NCBI RefSeq assembly: GCF_015207505.1
Contig: NZ_JADEWT010000006.1
Span: 1-64,000, forward strand
Origin: Tychonema sp. LEGE 06208
GTDB lineage: Bacteria > Cyanobacteriota > Cyanobacteriia > Cyanobacteriales > Microcoleaceae
Length of the DNA stretch: 64,000 nt
Reading direction: 5' to 3'
How positions within the stretch are numbered: the first letter of the stretch is position 1; every line of letters starts with the position of its first letter. The notes beneath the pieces were generated by a model. That model worked only from the letters and a program-made list of their open reading frames with translations. It had not been told where the DNA came from and made no database searches. A program made the position numbers and the translations under genes. Positions 24,911 to 32,443 of the stretch are shown one piece after another.

Positions 24911-25156
24911 TAGAAGGATCGAGGCTAGAGGAATGGGAGTTTGTAGGGGCGGCAAGAGGCGATATTTTTTGCAGCCTCATATCAATTCCGTTAGCATCGG
25001 AATGATATAAACGGAGGACACGGCAGTGCCGTGTCCCTACAATCGATCGTGGTAGGGACACGGCAGTGCCGTGTCCTCGCTTATCATTCCGGCACTGCCG
25101 TGTCCTCGCTTATCATTCCGGTGCAGCCGGAATTGATATCACATCACGCCTCCAGC
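24911..25156. repeat. Repeat-rich spacer downstream of the patG-like gene
   Basis: It contains a short ATATCAATTCCG-TTAGCA-TCGGAATGATAT inverted repeat (~24979-25008) that uses the terminal sequence of the composite element. Three or four ACACGGCAGTGCCGTGT palindromes follow (25018-25105), then a GTGCAGCCGGAATTGATAT end module (~25120-25139). No gene. Confidence 0.65.
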
Positions 25157-25325
25157 TTACTTCGGCACAGACCACGATCGCACTTCACCCAAAGTAACGG
25201 GCATGGGATCTCTCACGTCAATAGTGAACCGGAAAACTTTCTTGGCCCGACTGCTGTTTTCTGGGTCAAAAAACTTCAATTTCACATCCCAACAGTCGCT
25301 ATCCAGACGGCAGAAAGGGCTTTTT
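25157..25325 (-). pseudogene. Out-of-frame 3' end of the patG-like gene
   Basis: After codon VEK the annotated frame diverges into a short nonsense tail. Shifting by one base restores 'SPFCRLDSDCWDVKLKFF', 'DPENSSRAKKVFRFTIDV' and 'LGEVRSWSVPK' followed by TAA at 25157-25159. This is nearly identical to the C-terminus of the patA-like gene (30458 onwards). The break is a homopolymer: five T on the plus strand (25321-25325) where the patA copy has six. Restored, the protein would have 723 residues. Confidence 0.8.
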
Positions 25326-27327
25326 CCACTTCAATCCTGTCGAGTTCCATCCCCCTAGCAACCGCTTCTGCAAAGGTGGAGGCAGCTTGGAAGGCGTTGG
25401 TTGCAGCGAAATTGAGGGCGCGATCGTGCGCTGTTTGGCCTAAATTTCGCAAGTCAAAATAGATGCGGTGCAGGAAGCTAGTTAAAGAACGCCCGATCGC
25501 TTCGGAGTTCGTATCGCTGTCAGAGTCGCGCACCGTTTCCAAAGCTGCGGCGATCAGGCTATTGACTCGCCAGCCATACATTCCTCGGGTATTTTGAACA
25601 GTAATTACTGGTACTATTTGGCCAGAAAATAGCTCCACCGTGCGATCGCTCAATCTCCCGGGTATACTCACCCGCTCAATAAAATCTTCGCTATCTTCGG
25701 CAAGCACCTGTCCGGCTAACATTAACTGGAGAGTTTCATACACATCCGCCCCAAAAGGCCCTTTCGGTTCAATGGCATAAACCGGCGTTAATTCCAGATT
25801 CAGCGTCCAAATTAAAGCTTTCCCTTCCGAGGGGTTTTGTTCCAGATAATCAACCATCTGGCGAGCATCGTAGGGATTAGCGGGGACTGCGGTGCCGTCA
25901 ATTTCATAGGCCGGCATCAGTTGTTTGAAGGTATCGCGCCGCGCTTCGCTGCCGAAGTCGTAGCCGAGGGTTCCCAAGGCATAAACTAGGTTTGATGGAA
26001 TGCTGGCGGTGACGGTGCCGGCAGCTTGGCTGGCGGTGACAGGAGTGCTCGACATAGTGGCAATTTCTGAGGGACGGGTTTCCAGAGTGGTGGAAGCAAG
26101 GAGGGGTTGAGACTGAGCTAAAACCCCCTCTTGCTTGCTGGCAAAGGAGTTTTCACCCTTCAATGGTCGGGAAAATTCCGTCGCCGTCGCCCCGATTGGG
26201 GAAAGAGAGAAGACTTGGCCCAGAGGTTCTACAAAATCTGTACGATCGCTGCCAGAGGCGACAACAGCCCTTAGCGGTTCCCCTGTCAGCAACCTCACCG
26301 CACCCGGAATGTTGAGTTTTCCGTGCAAACAGCGCTCTGGTTCTTCTACTTCTTCAGGATCGCAAGGGATGGCGCTGTTTAAAATGGCGGCGCGGACGGC
26401 TTCAGCATCCGGCTTTTCGCCTCGCTGCAATTGCAAGCTCATTAACAGGGCAGAAACGCCGGTAATAATAGGAGCCGCGCAACTCGTGCCTCTTTTCCGC
26501 GTTGGCTCGTCAGTTCCCAACCGCGCCCCTAATATATTTTCTCCAAATGCCATGATGCCTTGCTCGTTGTAGTTACCCCCCCAATTGCTGAATTGGAAGG
26601 GAAGACCGTCATCTCGTATCGCTCCCACTGTGAGAACACCAGGCAACAGGGCGGGGACGCACCAACACTCGCCTTTATCGTTACCAGCAGGTGCGACAAC
26701 TAAAATGCCGTTATCCTGGCACTGCTTGACGGCGCGGGCGATCAGTTCGTGCGCCAGTCCCGTTTGGGTGGGGTGGCAGGCGGCGCAGTGGATGATATTT
26801 GCCCCTTGTTTCATTGCCAAGTTGAAGGCGCGCGCAAGGTTGAGGGGCGAGATGAATTCGCTGCGTTCGCCACTGATGTCGATCGGAATATTGATGCCGG
26901 TGCAGTCTGGAGCCATGCCGGGGACGGGGGAACCGTGCTGGCCAAAAAGTGTACTCGCAACATGGGTGGCGTGGAAATCGGAGCCTAGGCGTATGAGAAT
27001 CGGTTCGGGGATGGTTTTTTTAAAAGCCTCTATTTCTGCTTCTTTGGCTTGAATTTTAGCGTCTTGGGCCCCTGTTTCGTTGTCTTTTTCTAGCTGTGAG
27101 ACTTCTTTTACCAGGGCTTCTAGTGTCCTGAATCTATCGAGATAAACTGGCTCAATGGGTTCGGATTCTTCCTGCCAGTAGGGGCGTAGTTGGCTGAAGT
27201 TGGCCCCAAGGAAGCAGGCGCGGGCCATGTCGGCGGAACCGTCTAGGACGGCAATAGTGATGCGAGGGTCGCCTAGAGTGCGCGTCCAGAGTTCAGGGAG
27301 GCCGGGGATAGCTATGAGGTCGGGCAT
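25282..27327 (-). CDS. patG: PatG-like cyanobactin macrocyclase/protease (S8 family), frameshifted near the 3' end
   Basis: A 681-residue subtilisin-like PatA/PatG-family protein without signal peptide, so cytosolic. The S8 domain (~5-345) has an intact triad: D29 (AVLDG), H119 (DFHATHVAS), S282 (RGTSCAAP), and the oxyanion Asn N216. D29 and H119 are 90 residues apart, because a ~55-residue helical insertion (~60-108, 'DRFRTLEALVKEVSQLEKDN', 'AKEAEIEAFKKTIPE') lies between them. A capping helix-loop-helix at this place distinguishes PatG macrocyclases from PatA. The C-terminal domain (~440-681) is the PatA/PatG-specific domain ('YALGTLGYDFGSEARRDTFKQLMPAYEID'). The N-terminal oxidase of classical PatG is absent, as expected when the product has no heterocycles. 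The last ~42 residues are out of frame (see 25157-25325). Confidence 0.85.
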   Translation of the reverse strand: MPDLIAIPGLPELWTRTLGDPRITIAVLDGSADMARACFLGANFSQLRPYWQEESEPIEPVYLDRFRTLEALVKEVSQLEKDNETGAQDAKIQAKEAEIEAFKKTIPEPILIRLGSDFHATHVASTLFGQHGSPVPGMAPDCTGINIPIDISGERSEFISPLNLARAFNLAMKQGANIIHCAACHPTQTGLAHELIARAVKQCQDNGILVVAPAGNDKGECWCVPALLPGVLTVGAIRDDGLPFQFSNWGGNYNEQGIMAFGENILGARLGTDEPTRKRGTSCAAPIITGVSALLMSLQLQRGEKPDAEAVRAAILNSAIPCDPEEVEEPERCLHGKLNIPGAVRLLTGEPLRAVVASGSDRTDFVEPLGQVFSLSPIGATATEFSRPLKGENSFASKQEGVLAQSQPLLASTTLETRPSEIATMSSTPVTASQAAGTVTASIPSNLVYALGTLGYDFGSEARRDTFKQLMPAYEIDGTAVPANPYDARQMVDYLEQNPSEGKALIWTLNLELTPVYAIEPKGPFGADVYETLQLMLAGQVLAEDSEDFIERVSIPGRLSDRTVELFSGQIVPVITVQNTRGMYGWRVNSLIAAALETVRDSDSDTNSEAIGRSLTSFLHRIYFDLRNLGQTAHDRALNFAATNAFQAASTFAEAVARGMELDRIEVEKALSAVWIATVGM

Positions 27328-28029
27328 TGTAGATTTTAGTAGATGTTAAATGTTAGCGTGCAATGGTAAGGCTCAAGTTAGTTTCAATTTTTTGAAAATT
27401 AGTGAATTTGGTTATAGTTAAGTCTGTAACAGTTGCATTTTTAGTGAACCTAATTATTTATATTATTTTTTATAGAAGTCTGACATTACTGTTACACCTT
27501 TTGTTTCCCTTCAACTCCTTTGATACTACAAATTAAAATTTTCAAGTTTCCGGCAAGAGTTTCTTTTTCGAGGTATACCGTATACTGATTGATTTCTGTA
27601 ATAGGTCTGGCTTTTATTAACCATATTGTTGTGCCAACCATTATCTATAAAATTGTTAGGATTCACAAGATATCCATATTTCTATATGTTCCTAAATAAT
27701 TACCCGAAAACGTCGCCCGTGCCAAGTAGACCAGAAAGTACAAAGGCTTTAGTCAAAATTACAACACCAAAGAGAAGACCCCAACAAAGTGCTACTGGGT
27801 AGTAACCTGCTTGCCAGGGTTCATCTCTCTGACTAAAGTTTTCACTCTCGCCTCAACCAGGCGTCAAAAGCGGTCATCTGAGTCCCCTCGGAGACTCCTC
27901 CCATATCCGGTATCGAAAAACCTAGAAACGACAAGGACTTTACGTCAATTCATCGCGGTAAATTGTGAACCAAAGGAAGTAGAAAAAGACTTTTGAGCTT
28001 TTTTGAGGCGAGTGAGAAAATGGAAACGA
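27328..28029. other. 700-bp gap at the usual position of patF; no gene recognised
   Basis: In cyanobactin operons a PatF (prenyltransferase-like) gene usually lies between the precursor and PatG genes. On the minus strand here I find no PatF-like frame, and stops are frequent. A 61-codon plus-strand frame at 27811-27996 has no recognisable similarity. The part at 27340-27700 is very AT-rich and looks like leader DNA or degraded sequence. Confidence 0.5.
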
Positions 28030-28176
28030 TTACTCGGCGTCGTCGCCCGCAAAAGGAGGAATTGGTATAGGGATGAATATGGACGCCTCGACGCTTTGAG
28101 CAGCTTGGCTGTTGTTATTACCTACAGTTGTCCGCACGACAGGGGCAGTTTGTTGGGGTTTGAGACTCTTTTTCAT
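28030..28176 (-). CDS. patE: Cyanobactin precursor peptide (PatE-like, anacyclamide type)
   Basis: A 48-residue precursor. Leader residues 1-27 begin MKKSLKPQQTAPVVR, matching the K-(K/R)-x-x-x-PQQ-x-APV-x-R leader of cyanobactin precursors. Residues 28-32, SVEAS, correspond to the N-terminal protease recognition site (G/S-V-E-A-S). Residues 33-41, IFIPIPIPP, are the predicted core, ending in proline as PatG macrocyclases require. Residues 42-48, FAGDDAE, are the C-terminal follower cut off by PatG, as in anacyclamide precursors. The core has no Cys/Ser/Thr, so no heterocycles are expected. AGGAAA lies ~9 bases before the ATG. It sits between the LamG/PatC-like and PatG-like genes, the canonical position. 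Confidence 0.88.
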   Translation of the reverse strand: MKKSLKPQQTAPVVRTTVGNNNSQAAQSVEASIFIPIPIPPFAGDDAE

Positions 28177-28479
28177 GATTTTTATTTCCTAATTAAGCGT
28201 GCAATTTGATTAGTAGGGAAAGTTTTTAGTTTTTCCCGTTGGCTAGTGGCTGCAATGAATGCAGAGCGCCTAGTGATTAGCACTTAGAAAGGGATAGTTT
28301 TTTGGGAATCCCTCTGCACTAATAATAGCTACACAATTTTGAAACGTCAAGCATTTTTTTGTTATTTATTTGGCTGGTTTTTATTGTCAACTTCCAGGGA
28401 AAACAGCGGCTGAATCTCTTAAAGATTAACCGCTTTTCGCTTAATTTAGTGATTCCAATGATGGAATTTTTGCCTGCTT
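28177..28479. other. Leader region upstream of the precursor gene
   Basis: About 300 bp of AT-rich sequence between the LamG gene and the precursor gene. It contains the precursor's ribosome site (AGGAAA on the minus strand, ~28186-28191) and an inverted repeat AAACAGCGGCTG / CGCTTTTCGCT-like stretch at ~28400-28440 next to the LamG stop. No second precursor-like frame was found. Confidence 0.4.
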
Positions 28480-29994
28480 TTAACTCCAAATTCTCCCCCG
28501 ACGGAAAGGCACCTTTGGCTTATCTACTTGCGCCTCAGACAACTTCTTCCACCAGTAACCATAATCTTCCAAACCCGTCGAATTTAACAACCGATCCTTC
28601 GGGTCCGGAGCATCAATAATTGGCATTAACGACTGACCCCAAACTGCCTCCCCAAAAATCTTGCCATTTTGAGGTTTTTTCGCCTTCTCCCGCGCCAAAG
28701 TCCCCGACCCTTCTGACAGCGACCAATACCCCACTAACCCCGTTTCATCGCCTTTTAAACGGTGAACTAATTTCGATTGAATTTCCTTAGCGGTGCGGAC
28801 TTTATTCCACAGACGAACCTCGGCAATTTTCCCATTAAACCAATAATCTCCGTAACCCGGTTGCTCCGTGTTCCCCGCACCAATACGGAAGGGACGTTTA
28901 CTATTTGCTTTAAACTTGATATTCTCTCGCTTGCTCACTTCCTGGCCGTTGACATAGAAATAAGCTGTATCAGATTTTCCATCGTACACCCCCGTCAAAT
29001 GTACCCAAACATTAATCTCAATATCCCGCCCACCCAAAACAATCCAACTCGCTCCCACCTCGCCGCTACCCAGCCAAAACTCCCATTTCTGCGAGGGAGT
29101 CGCATAGAACATATAGCCCTTGCAACCATTCACATCCGACCCATCCCGCGACATTAATACCGATCGGTATCCGTCGCCCCCAATGAACATCACCCACGCC
29201 TCAACGGTGAACGTAGCGGGATTGATTTCCTTGGCATAATCAATATCAATCTTGTCATCAATGCCGTCAAAATTCAGCACTGTTTGCAAGCGTTCTTGTG
29301 GAGCATTTGCATTCGTCATAGTCAGCATCTCCTGTGTTTCAATTACTTCGGGGATAACGGGAACCTCAGACAACTCCCAAGTTGCCTCATGAACAATCCC
29401 GTGATTAGCATTTTGAGTCTTGTCGCAAACTGTATTGCCCGTACCTTCATTTAAAGGCCAATAGCCTGCTAGTCCCGGTTCATTTCCTGCCAAACAGCGG
29501 GACATATCAGCTTGAAGTTCTGCTTGAATGCGGCATTTATTCCAGATGCGGACTTCAGAAAGTTGACCCTTCCAAGATTCTGCACCTTGAGGATTTTTCC
29601 TGCCAATTTCCCAACTAATGCTGCTTGATTTGCGCCGCCGGCTGCCGACAAAAGTCTGCATGAGTTCACCATTGACGTAAAAGTGAAGCTTGCTGTTAGC
29701 TTCAAACACCAGCGCTAGATGAAACCAAGTGCCGGCTACAAGCTTAGCTGAGGTAGTATTGTAATTTTTACTCTTATAAATCGTGAATCGGAGCTGGCTG
29801 TTAAATAAACCAAAACCCCAAGCAGGATGCTCCGAAAATACCCTTTGCACCCCCTTAGTTGTTTTAGTTTTCACCCAAGCTTCTACCGTAAAGTTGTTGC
29901 CTAAATCGCAGGAAATATGGGGGAGGGCAACATAACTCTCTACCCCGTCAAAGGTCAGAACTGGTCGGCTGTTATTTAGGAGATTAGTCATCAC
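28480..29994 (-). CDS. Two-LamG-domain protein with PatC-like C-terminal tail
   Basis: A 504-residue protein with two concanavalin-A-like LamG domains (~10-215 and ~235-450). Each starts 'L.FDG..(S/D)' and contains 'FTVEAWV', a 'FYVNGE' strand and 'G..GYW(P/S)L.EG.G'. These domains usually bind carbohydrate or protein. There is no signal peptide. A distinct tail follows (469-504): 'NSTGLEDYGYWWKKLSE' and 'FRRGRIWS'. It is not part of the LamG fold and resembles, from memory, the small PatC/TenC/TruC proteins of cyanobactin clusters. The gene occupies exactly the patC position between patB- and patE-like genes. A LamG-PatC fusion is an inference; the LamG assignment is firm. Confidence 0.8.
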   Translation of the reverse strand: MMTNLLNNSRPVLTFDGVESYVALPHISCDLGNNFTVEAWVKTKTTKGVQRVFSEHPAWGFGLFNSQLRFTIYKSKNYNTTSAKLVAGTWFHLALVFEANSKLHFYVNGELMQTFVGSRRRKSSSISWEIGRKNPQGAESWKGQLSEVRIWNKCRIQAELQADMSRCLAGNEPGLAGYWPLNEGTGNTVCDKTQNANHGIVHEATWELSEVPVIPEVIETQEMLTMTNANAPQERLQTVLNFDGIDDKIDIDYAKEINPATFTVEAWVMFIGGDGYRSVLMSRDGSDVNGCKGYMFYATPSQKWEFWLGSGEVGASWIVLGGRDIEINVWVHLTGVYDGKSDTAYFYVNGQEVSKRENIKFKANSKRPFRIGAGNTEQPGYGDYWFNGKIAEVRLWNKVRTAKEIQSKLVHRLKGDETGLVGYWSLSEGSGTLAREKAKKPQNGKIFGEAVWGQSLMPIIDAPDPKDRLLNSTGLEDYGYWWKKLSEAQVDKPKVPFRRGRIWS

Positions 29995-30058
29995 TTTGAT
30001 TCCTGCTGGCTTCAGAGTTTAGATATGAATTGGCTCTGCGGGCAAAGTTTCCCATTTC

Positions 30059-30167
30059 ATACCGCAGATTCCACATTTATGAAGTACACCCGCCTATCGT
30101 GAGCTTCCCCCCCGTAGGGACACGGCACTGCCGTGTCCCTACTTCACAAACCTGGAATACGCTGTAT
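30059..30167 (+). repeat. MITE-like repeat with TGCCGTGTCCC palindrome, copy 2
   Basis: ATACCGCAGATTCCACATTTATGAAG at the left, the central ACACGGCACTGCCGTGT palindrome, and CCTGGAATACGCTGTAT at the right. It lies inside the cyanobactin operon between the patB- and LamG/patC-like genes and might attenuate transcription. Confidence 0.75.
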
Positions 30168-30229
30168 CTAAACTTTTTAGTTTAAAAATCAGCCGTTATT
30201 TTTGGCGAAAAAGAGGAGAAAAGTGGTTT

Positions 30230-30445
30230 TTACCGCCTGCCCCCCCAGCAGCCACAGCTAGAACTTTTAAGTTGTTGATAGCTCCGGTAAGCAAACGGCG
30301 CCGGGTCATTGTAATTTGCCCCGTGCATCAATCGGATGCGAATGTCAACCAACTCTTCTGACCGACCATTCACTACATCGACAGAGCGGTGGGGGTGAAT
30401 GAGTTCTGGTCTTTTCACCGGTGGTGATAATTTTGGCAGATTCAT
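30230..30445 (-). CDS. patB: PatB-type small cyanobactin-cluster protein
   Basis: A 71-residue soluble protein with 'KRPELIHPHRSVDVVNG', 'EELVDIRIRLMHGANYND' and a Ser/Cys/Gly-rich end 'SSSCGCWGGRR'. Its size, position immediately downstream of the patA-like gene (12-bp gap) and pattern fit the PatB/AcyB/McaB family of cyanobactin clusters, whose biochemical role is unknown. The Cys-Gly tail could look like a RiPP core, but there is no SVEAS-type cleavage site before it and no AYDG/AGDD follower after it, so a precursor role is unlikely. Confidence in coding is good; the family name is from memory. Confidence 0.7.
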   Translation of the reverse strand: MNLPKLSPPVKRPELIHPHRSVDVVNGRSEELVDIRIRLMHGANYNDPAPFAYRSYQQLKSSSCGCWGGRR

Positions 30446-30457
30446 AATATGTCCAAA

Positions 30458-31342
30458 TTAGTAAGGAGTAGACCAAGAACGCACTTCGCCCAGCGTCACC
30501 GGGATCGTGTCGCTCACATCAATGGTAAAGCGGTAAACTTTCTTAGCACGGCGGCTATTTTCTGGGTCAAAAAACTTTAATTTCACATCCCAGCAATCAC
30601 TATCAAGCCGGCAGAACGGGCTTTTTTCTACCGTAATGCTGTCGAGTTCCATGCCTGTTGCCACTGCTGCGGCGAAGGTAGAAGCCGCTTGGAAAGCGTT
30701 AGTAGCAGCAAAATTTAGCGCTCGGTCTTGGGAAGTTGTCCCTAAGTTCCGCAAATCGTAGTAAATCCGGTTGAGGAAGCTACCGAGGGTGCGTCGCATC
30801 GTTTCTTCGGTTGCTTCTGTTGCCGTGGCGCGGACTGTTTCTAAAGCGGCGGTGACGAGGGTATTAACTTTCTAACTGTAAATTCCTCGCGTGTTGTGCG
30901 GTTCGATCACCGGCACTACTTGGCCAGAGAATAGTTTAACGGTTTTGCCGCTCAGAACCCCCGGAATGCTGACTCGTTCCACATAGTCTTCACTGTCTTC
31001 CGCCTCTACTTGGCCTGCCAAAAATTCTTGCAAAAGACCGTACACGTCGCGGCCAAAAGCTCCGACCGGCTCAATGGCGTAAATGGGTGTCAGTTCCAGG
31101 TTTAGCGTCCAAATTAAAGACTTCGCCTCTGAGGGGTTTTGTTCGAGATAGTCTGCCATCTGGCGGGCATCGTAGGGATTAGCCGGCACGGCGGTATTGT
31201 CAATTTCATAGGCCGGCATCAGTTGCTTGAACGAGTCGCGCCTCGCCTCGCTGCCGAAGTCGTAACCCAATGTTCCCAAGGCGTAGACAAGCTGGACATC
31301 TTCGAGGTCGCTGGGTGCTTGGCTGGGGGCGATGCCGGTCGA
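30458..31342 (-). pseudogene. C-terminal domain of the patA-like gene, separated by in-frame stops
   Basis: The same reading frame continues after the TGA at 31343-31345: 'VYALGTLGYDFGSEARRDSF' through 'HNTRGIYS', then a TAG at 30872-30874 where the patG-like copy has Trp ('RGMYGWRVN'). It then runs on with 'KVNTLVTAALETVR' to 'LGEVRSWSTPY', stopping at 30458. Counting from 32443 the stops are codons 367 (TGA) and 524 (TAG) of 662. There is no frameshift, and the domain sequence is otherwise well conserved, so the lesions look recent. Separate translation of the two pieces from TTG/ATG codons is possible but unsupported. Confidence 0.8.
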
Positions 31343-32443
31343 TCAGTTGTTGCTCATAATAGAATTGCTTGGGCTGCTAAATGAACGAATTTGTGTGGAT
31401 GTTAGTAGAGATTCGGGGGTGGGTGGGAGAGATGTTGAAGAAAGCAGTGCGCTTTCTAAGCTTTCTTGTAGTTGCTGTTGGGCTTGTACGGTTTCTTCTA
31501 AAACTGTTTGAGTTATTCCTTCGCAACCGCAGCCAGCAGCCTCGACGCCTTCTAATTGCTCTGACATTTTTCCTCCTTGTATTAAATAACTTGCACCCAA
31601 AACATTGAGCTTGCCAACTAGACAGCGGTCTGCACTTTCTGTATCGGCATAGCAGGGTAAGGCACTTTTTAAAATGGCCTCCCGCACTTTGCTCGGATCG
31701 GGCTTTTGTCCCTGCTTAATTTGCAGGCTGAGCAACAAAGCAGCCACCCCTGAAATAACGGGGGTGGCAAAGCTGGTGCCGCTAAGTCGGGTAGTGCCTC
31801 CTCCGGGCTTGGCTCCTAGGATGTTTTCTCCCGGGGCTAGAATACCTTGATCCTTGTAGGTTTTTCCCCAGTTACTAAAATTTAGAGGCTGACCTCGATC
31901 GTCCATTGCTCCCACTGCCAAAACTGCCGGCAGTGCAGCAGGTACGTGCAAGCAATTGCAACCGTCGTTCCCAGCCGCAGCCACGATTAAAACGTTGTTG
32001 TCGTTGCACAGTTGCACGGCACTTTCGAGCCAGCCTTCGGCTTCGCCTATTTCGGTCAGTTGACCGCCGCTGATGTTGATAATATGAGCGCCCGCGCTGA
32101 CAGCACTTTCGATCGCACGAGCTATATCTAGCTGAGACACCCTAGATCGGTTGTCGGAAAAGATGGGAACGATTAATCCCCGGCATTTAGGGGCAATTCC
32201 GGGTATTTCTGAGCCGTGTTGCCCGAAGATTATGCTGGCAACGTGGGTACCGTGCAGAGACATGGCACCGGTGGCAGATAGTTCTTCCTGCACCAATGTG
32301 GGTAGCCGTTGGAGGTTTGCTCCGGCCAAACAAGCGTGATCCCGGTCTACTAAGCCATCTAGTACCGCTACACAAACTTGGGAATCACCGCCAGTTTTTT
32401 CCCAAAGGCTTTGAATTCCAGGAATTTGGGTTACATCGGCCAT
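31343..32443 (-). CDS. patA: PatA-like cyanobactin maturation protease, S8 domain
   Basis: Subtilisin-like protease of the PatA/PatG family, 366 residues up to a TGA stop. The start MADVTQIPG at 32443 aligns with the patG-like start; the frame opens 12 codons earlier. The triad is complete: Asp in 'VAVLDGLVDRDH', His in 'SLHGTHVAS', Ser in 'LSGTSFATP', plus the oxyanion Asn in 'AAAGND'. Asp and His are only 35 residues apart, without the macrocyclase insertion, so this is the PatA-type enzyme expected to remove the leader after the SVEAS site. It has no signal peptide. The PatA/PatG C-terminal domain continues in the same frame beyond the TGA (30458-31342). Confidence 0.82.
   Translation of the reverse strand: MADVTQIPGIQSLWEKTGGDSQVCVAVLDGLVDRDHACLAGANLQRLPTLVQEELSATGAMSLHGTHVASIIFGQHGSEIPGIAPKCRGLIVPIFSDNRSRVSQLDIARAIESAVSAGAHIINISGGQLTEIGEAEGWLESAVQLCNDNNVLIVAAAGNDGCNCLHVPAALPAVLAVGAMDDRGQPLNFSNWGKTYKDQGILAPGENILGAKPGGGTTRLSGTSFATPVISGVAALLLSLQIKQGQKPDPSKVREAILKSALPCYADTESADRCLVGKLNVLGASYLIQGGKMSEQLEGVEAAGCGCEGITQTVLEETVQAQQQLQESLESALLSSTSLPPTPESLLTSTQIRSFSSPSNSIMSNN

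Follow-up and report, generated by a model that had tools for sequence, protein, structure and literature searches.

An intact azole-free cyanobactin precursor gene in a probably decaying biosynthetic locus of Tychonema sp. LEGE 06208

Cyanobactin precursors of the PirE type combine the leader motif KKNxxPxxxxPVxR with the follower FAGD (PMC3428304). Such precursors are encoded, together with a pirF prenyltransferase gene and without a heterocyclase, in the piricyclamide cluster of Microcystis aeruginosa NIES843, in which pirA is broken by insertion sequences and pirG is frameshifted, and for which the same paper reports no product by LC-MS (PMC3428304). The autumnalamide (aut) cluster of Phormidium autumnale CCAP1446/10 (loci L008 and L064 in our set, taken as one contig), a strain from the GTDB genus of the organism studied here, has been published with two precursors and the prenyltransferase AutF (PMC9609003). 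As to the enzymes, PatA is described as extremely slow in vitro, and PatGmac alone makes rings in vitro (PMC4282754). PatA and PatG have a C-terminal domain in common, which the structure paper of 2014 describes as present in all pathways characterized by then; in the same paper this domain did not bind the most plausible substrates, it had no known role, and its function was left open (PMC4259220).

The window analyzed in this work, i.e. a stretch of 64,000 nucleotides from Tychonema sp. LEGE 06208, contains a related cluster with the minus-strand order PatA, PatB, LamG-PatC, precursor (E) and PatG (Table 1). Profile matches to the neighbors place E between the PatC-tailed gene (TIGR04447 for the PatC tail, 51.5 bits, cut-off 30; Laminin_G_3, 202.6 bits) and the PatG gene, where the first-pass annotation had located it. 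E is encoded beside PatA and PatG proteases together with PatC and with a PatB recognized by homology and position; the name PatB is presumed from the position of the gene. The PatG frame comprises the S8 macrocyclase domain, PatG_D and part of PatG_C. LamG-like genes occupy the PatC position in seven other loci as well (L061, L062, L063, L064, L012, L017 and L023), and a text search covering part of the literature, figures excluded, returned no paper that contains both LamG and cyanobactin. Palindromic repeats are located behind PatG at 24984-25102, with similar sequence in L061; the Rfam matches to miRNA families over these repeats stayed under the gathering scores and were taken as chance.

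Table 1. Features of the cyanobactin locus in the window
Feature	Position	Strand	Evidence
PatA-type leader protease gene, in-frame stops at 31343-31345 and 30872-30874	30458..32443	-	one frame, 943.8 bits
Protease domain and linker of PatA, ahead of the first stop	31346..32443	-	4h6w alignment over residues 16-314 (378-aa frame)
PatB homologue, 71 aa (name presumed)	30230..30445	-	tblastn, 65-93% identical to stretches of related loci
Fusion of LamG-like domains and PatC (504 aa), PatC tail spanning residues 473-504	28480..29994	-	TIGR04447, Laminin_G_3
Promoter-like site TTGACG-17-TATTAT upstream of E (weak evidence)	28322..28350	-	consensus match
Cyanobactin precursor gene (E), 48 aa	28030..28176	-	TIGR04446 and DUF5840 matches, translation
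Leader (residues 1-32); contains PQQTAPVVR and the cleavage motif SVEAS	28081..28176	-	sequence; similar leaders in other precursor genes
Predicted core IFIPIPIPP, residues 33-41	28054..28080	-	comparison with two autumnalamide precursors with published cores
Follower FAGDDAE, residues 42-48	28033..28053	-	same follower in relatives
IS200-like transposase gene, 3'-terminal remnant (portion behind the Y1 domain); tail-to-tail with E	27730..27963	+	tblastn
PatG-type macrocyclase gene, 681-aa frame, lost near 25318-25325	25282..27327	-	TIGR03895, Pfam domains, 4h6x/4aks alignment
Remaining PatG C-terminal domain, second frame	25163..25324	-	TIGR03895 positions 553-606, 108.9 bits

The aut cluster shares with the window PatA, PatB, LamG-PatC (88% identical) and precursors ending in FAGDDAE or FAGGDAE, and its PatG frame of 740 codons is 71% identical to the PatG of the window; however, its PatA and PatG frames are uninterrupted and its cores are TLRESTAMYP and GLDFRFP. 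The NIES843 cluster resembles the window in its PirE-type precursors, the lack of a heterocyclase, the damaged A gene and the frameshifted G gene, but PatA of the window carries two nonsense codons rather than insertion sequences, and no prenyltransferase gene over the cut-off was found in the window's genome. The cluster of genome G018 (L061) occupies the same genomic place with the same flanking genes, and is 93% identical in DNA over the protease part of PatA and over the 391 PatC codons compared, whereas it represents an azoline-type pathway with a YcaO heterocyclase, a ThcOx oxidase and Cys/Thr-containing cores, and its PatA has no stop. The LamG-PatC gene of G018 is itself split over two frames (126 + 403 codons; L061:5481-6993), i.e. 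there is a lesion in that cluster too.

The relationship to G018 differs along the locus. The dS values are 0.17 for the PatA protease domain, 0.18 for PatC and 0.25 for the PatA C-terminal domain, vs. 0.58 for PatB (71 codons only) and 0.73 and 0.68 for the two flanking genes. At the DNA level, the identity of the PatA protease domain is 93.3% with G018, 73.9% with L062 and 73.1% with L064; for the PatG macrocyclase domain it is 63.6% with G018 and 81.0% with both L062 and L064. By these values the locus (25163-32443) is a mosaic, in which the middle segment, from the precursor to the macrocyclase, was presumably exchanged.

The translation of E, MKKSLKPQQTAPVVRTTVGNNNSQAAQSVEASIFIPIPIPPFAGDDAE (ATG at 28176, stop at 28030-28032), had been proposed as a cyanobactin precursor from a reading of the DNA, and the profile check bears this out: E matches the curated NCBIfam model TIGR04446 of the anacyclamide/piricyclamide PirE family (39.6 bits, cut-off 35, E-value 4.7e-10) as well as Pfam DUF5840 (35.5 bits, cut-off 25). 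In the whole genome (6.55 Mb, 232 contigs) E is the sole place above the TIGR04446 cut-off, with the next best at 13.8 bits. A frame as short as E might in principle be a chance frame without function, but it passes a curated model, is the only such place in 6.55 Mb and sits in the expected slot of the gene order; the score above the cut-off and the genome-wide uniqueness led us to reject this reading, to which we assign a practically negligible probability. E carries KKSLKPQQTAPVVR followed by FAGDDAE, i.e. the PirE leader and follower pattern with Ser in place of Asn, a change common to E, the autumnalamide precursors and the precursors of L062. The frame is intact, and E is a genuine precursor of the azole-free cyanobactin type, one of dozens of like precursor genes in related genomes; both its PirE/anacyclamide-type assignment and the borders of leader, core and follower remain as first described. 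The search for a second precursor elsewhere in the genome gave three other TIGR04446 places with 12-14 bits only, all opposite longer open frames and none with a FAGDDAE-like follower; one has a short leader-like stretch. No relative of E was found in the plasmid records searched, and in the literature texts covered (part of the literature, figures excluded) the word "cyanobactin" never occurs together with "FAGDDAE" or "IPIPIP".

The predicted division SVEAS/IFIPIPIPP/FAGDDAE is well founded, though inferred, because the precursors of L038 and L064 read ...LAAS/TLRESTAMYP/FAGDDAE and ...VEAQ/GLDFRFP/FAGGDAE, in which TLRESTAMYP and GLDFRFP are the published cores of the two autumnalamides (PMC9609003), and because PatA is reported to cleave after GLEAS (PMC4282754). 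Processing at other borders, or a product that stays linear, would make the mass forecast wrong; leader ends do differ among relatives, and with PatA truncated other proteases could trim the peptide. However, SVEAS resembles GLEAS as well as LAAS and VEAQ, with which the leaders of the two precursors with published cores end, and among 39 compared precursors ending in FAGDDAE (the window's own included) 36 have a core that closes with Pro and 3 one that closes with Thr, so that we regard such alternative processing as very improbable.

The whole-genome profile search yielded no match to the YcaO heterocyclase model TIGR03604 at an E-value of 0.001, and for the LynF/TruF/PatF prenyltransferases a best match of 10.6 bits vs. 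the cut-off of 140. Therefore a plain cyclic peptide is forecast, the expected product type being a ring of unmodified residues. The lack of a heterocyclase match, together with the lack of a Pfam oxidase domain match in the PatG frame (which begins with the macrocyclase part), agrees with the earlier expectation of a product without heterocycles. For the cyclic nonapeptide C53H81N9O9 put forward in the first-pass annotation, we recomputed an [M+H]+ of 988.6230. The core had also been called unusually hydrophobic, which is fair but does not make it unique: calculated for the last nine core residues, E ranks third of 39 on the octanol scale, behind LWVWLPWAP and LPAIFFPIP, and on the Kyte-Doolittle scale it ranks fourth. 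In Ile/Pro content E is the highest of the 39 (8/9 residues, the next precursor having 5). IFIPIPIPP is a new core in a known ring-peptide family, and it appears extreme among the cores compared, yet with near neighbors.

Upstream of E, five promoter-like sites were found vs. 2.5 (sd 1.5) in shuffled sequences, which is little proof alone. When the upstream stretches of 12 other precursor genes are aligned, TTGAC recurs in the same position in seven of them, as counted by eye (L006, four genes; L014, one; L064, two), and is absent from the two precursor genes of L061. Judging from the sequence, E is probably transcribed.

Tail-to-tail with E, the transposase remnant was identified by tblastn (42% identity over 78 aa, E-value 1.5e-9); the Y1 domain (PF01797), found in three relatives of the transposase, falls outside the piece preserved in the window. 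In a count covering part of the loci (24 loci, the window included and duplicates dropped, with 56 precursor genes that have a leader), a transposase 3' end (E-value <=0.001) is located 40-75 bases behind the stop codon of 25 precursor genes, as a near-full gene in 7 cases and as a fragment in 18. The other 31 have no transposase end by this distance rule, but they include precursor genes of L016 and L019 with a near-full match ending farther off. We propose that new precursor copies arise along with the end of the transposase gene; the presence of a transposase in such clusters has already been reported (PMC9366434, PMC6162287). The tail-to-tail spacing to the full or 3'-truncated transposase gene is often ~61 bases, with examples in the window, L062, L064, L068, L010, L012, L017 and others. 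The idea that this Y1 transposase is exclusive to cyanobactin clusters was rejected, as relatives are found in genomes without a TIGR04446 match, and also next to other genes. In L077 (G010), a transposase of this family is found tail-to-tail, at 52 bases, with a different PatE-like precursor, which ends in SYEGDDE.

Compared with the intact protease genes of a functional cyanobactin pathway, both PatA and PatG of the window are incomplete. PatA is one continuous homologous frame (TIGR03895 positions 1-606, 943.8 bits) interrupted by one TGA and one TAG, and both stop positions (31343-31345 and 30872-30874) are sense codons in the related copy of G018. PatG is split, with TIGR03895 positions 1-554 in one frame and 553-606 in another; the frameshift is located ~52 residues before the end, near 25318-25325, at a short run of A. 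The portions lost are the whole C-terminal domain of PatA and about the last 52 residues of the C-terminal domain of PatG. The first-pass annotation had described the product as conditional on processing ("if processed"); its precursor and borders stand, but it mentioned neither the stops nor the frameshift, and processing is now the central doubt. A second PatA was sought elsewhere in the genome, but outside the locus no PatA-family place exceeds the cut-off of 421; besides PatA, there are five TIGR03895-type places, namely the two PatG pieces and three weak ones (75, 50 and 47 bits).

To put these lesions in context, 61 genomes of the same family gave 65 TIGR03895 rows, of which 50 cover at least 530 of 606 positions; among the 15 partial rows left there may be more copies that are broken or cut by a contig end. 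In-frame stops occur in only 2 of the 50 near-complete rows (PatA of the window and one in G039), a base rate for stops only, since a frameshift is not visible as a stop. As an assembly control, G018 frames of at least 100 codons were aligned to the window, with which the G018 contig is largely collinear. Leaving aside 13 of the 45 frames without a match and 5 in cyanobactin genes or a repeat, all 27 others align as a single piece. Past the first Met, 26 of them are free of stops, and the remaining one is a 102-codon frame that overlaps another frame. The lesions are thus concentrated in the cyanobactin pathway.

In an undamaged pathway, PatA would remove the leader behind SVEAS, after which PatG would cleave in front of FAGDDAE and close the ring to form cyclo(IFIPIPIPP). 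In this genome the locus is probably in early decay, with two premature stops in PatA, a frameshift in the C-terminal domain of PatG and no prenyltransferase over the cut-off. E, an intact azole-free precursor, is probably transcribed, but ring formation is probably poor at best or absent. We consider it probable, short of a firm prediction, that the product is lost or strongly reduced, with the damaged NIES843 cluster and its undetected product as a precedent (PMC3428304).

The catalytic domains of both proteases precede the lesions and align to solved structures, that of PatA to 4h6w (nearly the whole solved domain) and 4h6v, and the PatG macrocyclase domain to the PatG macrocyclase structures 4h6x and 4aks. 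Compared with G018, dN/dS is 0.10 for the stretch of PatA beyond the first stop (C-terminal domain 0.058), near the 0.087 of a flanking gene, which we take to be RNase R-like; it is 0.29 for the stretch ahead of that stop (protease domain 0.232, linker 0.576) and 0.231 for PatC. The higher values for the PatA front and PatC could mean that these parts are less constrained, or only that little time has passed since the two genomes diverged. Beyond its first stop PatA thus retains signs of purifying selection and, with both catalytic domains ahead of the lesions, the damage to PatA and PatG looks recent, although an assembly error fits these values too.

It may be asked whether the cluster still works, either because the lesions are assembly errors or because the truncated PatA and PatG process E to cyclo(IFIPIPIPP). 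The retained catalytic domains, the activity of PatGmac alone (PMC4282754), the purifying selection behind the first PatA stop and the intact frame of E are all in line with this. However, three separate lesions in two genes of one pathway, next to control frames of which 26/27 are stop-free and 27/27 in one piece, the rarity of in-frame stops (2/50 near-complete family members) and the reported occurrence of the C-terminal domain in every pathway characterized by 2014 (PMC4259220) make a working cluster rather unlikely. More doubtful still is the particular case that the strain makes cyclo(IFIPIPIPP), a ring almost wholly of Ile and Pro with neither prenyl group nor heterocycle, using a PatA that lacks its C-terminal domain and a PatG that lacks part of it. 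We therefore favor loss or strong reduction of the product.

IFIPIPIPP adds one natural core, extreme in Ile/Pro among those compared, to the hypervariable ring-peptide family. The locus also illustrates that a precursor gene alone does not equal a product, as the adjoining processing genes are damaged here. Should a product be found, the locus would offer a test of what the common C-terminal domain of PatA and PatG does; if the ring is indeed still made, it would be a natural experiment indicating that this conserved domain is dispensable in vivo.
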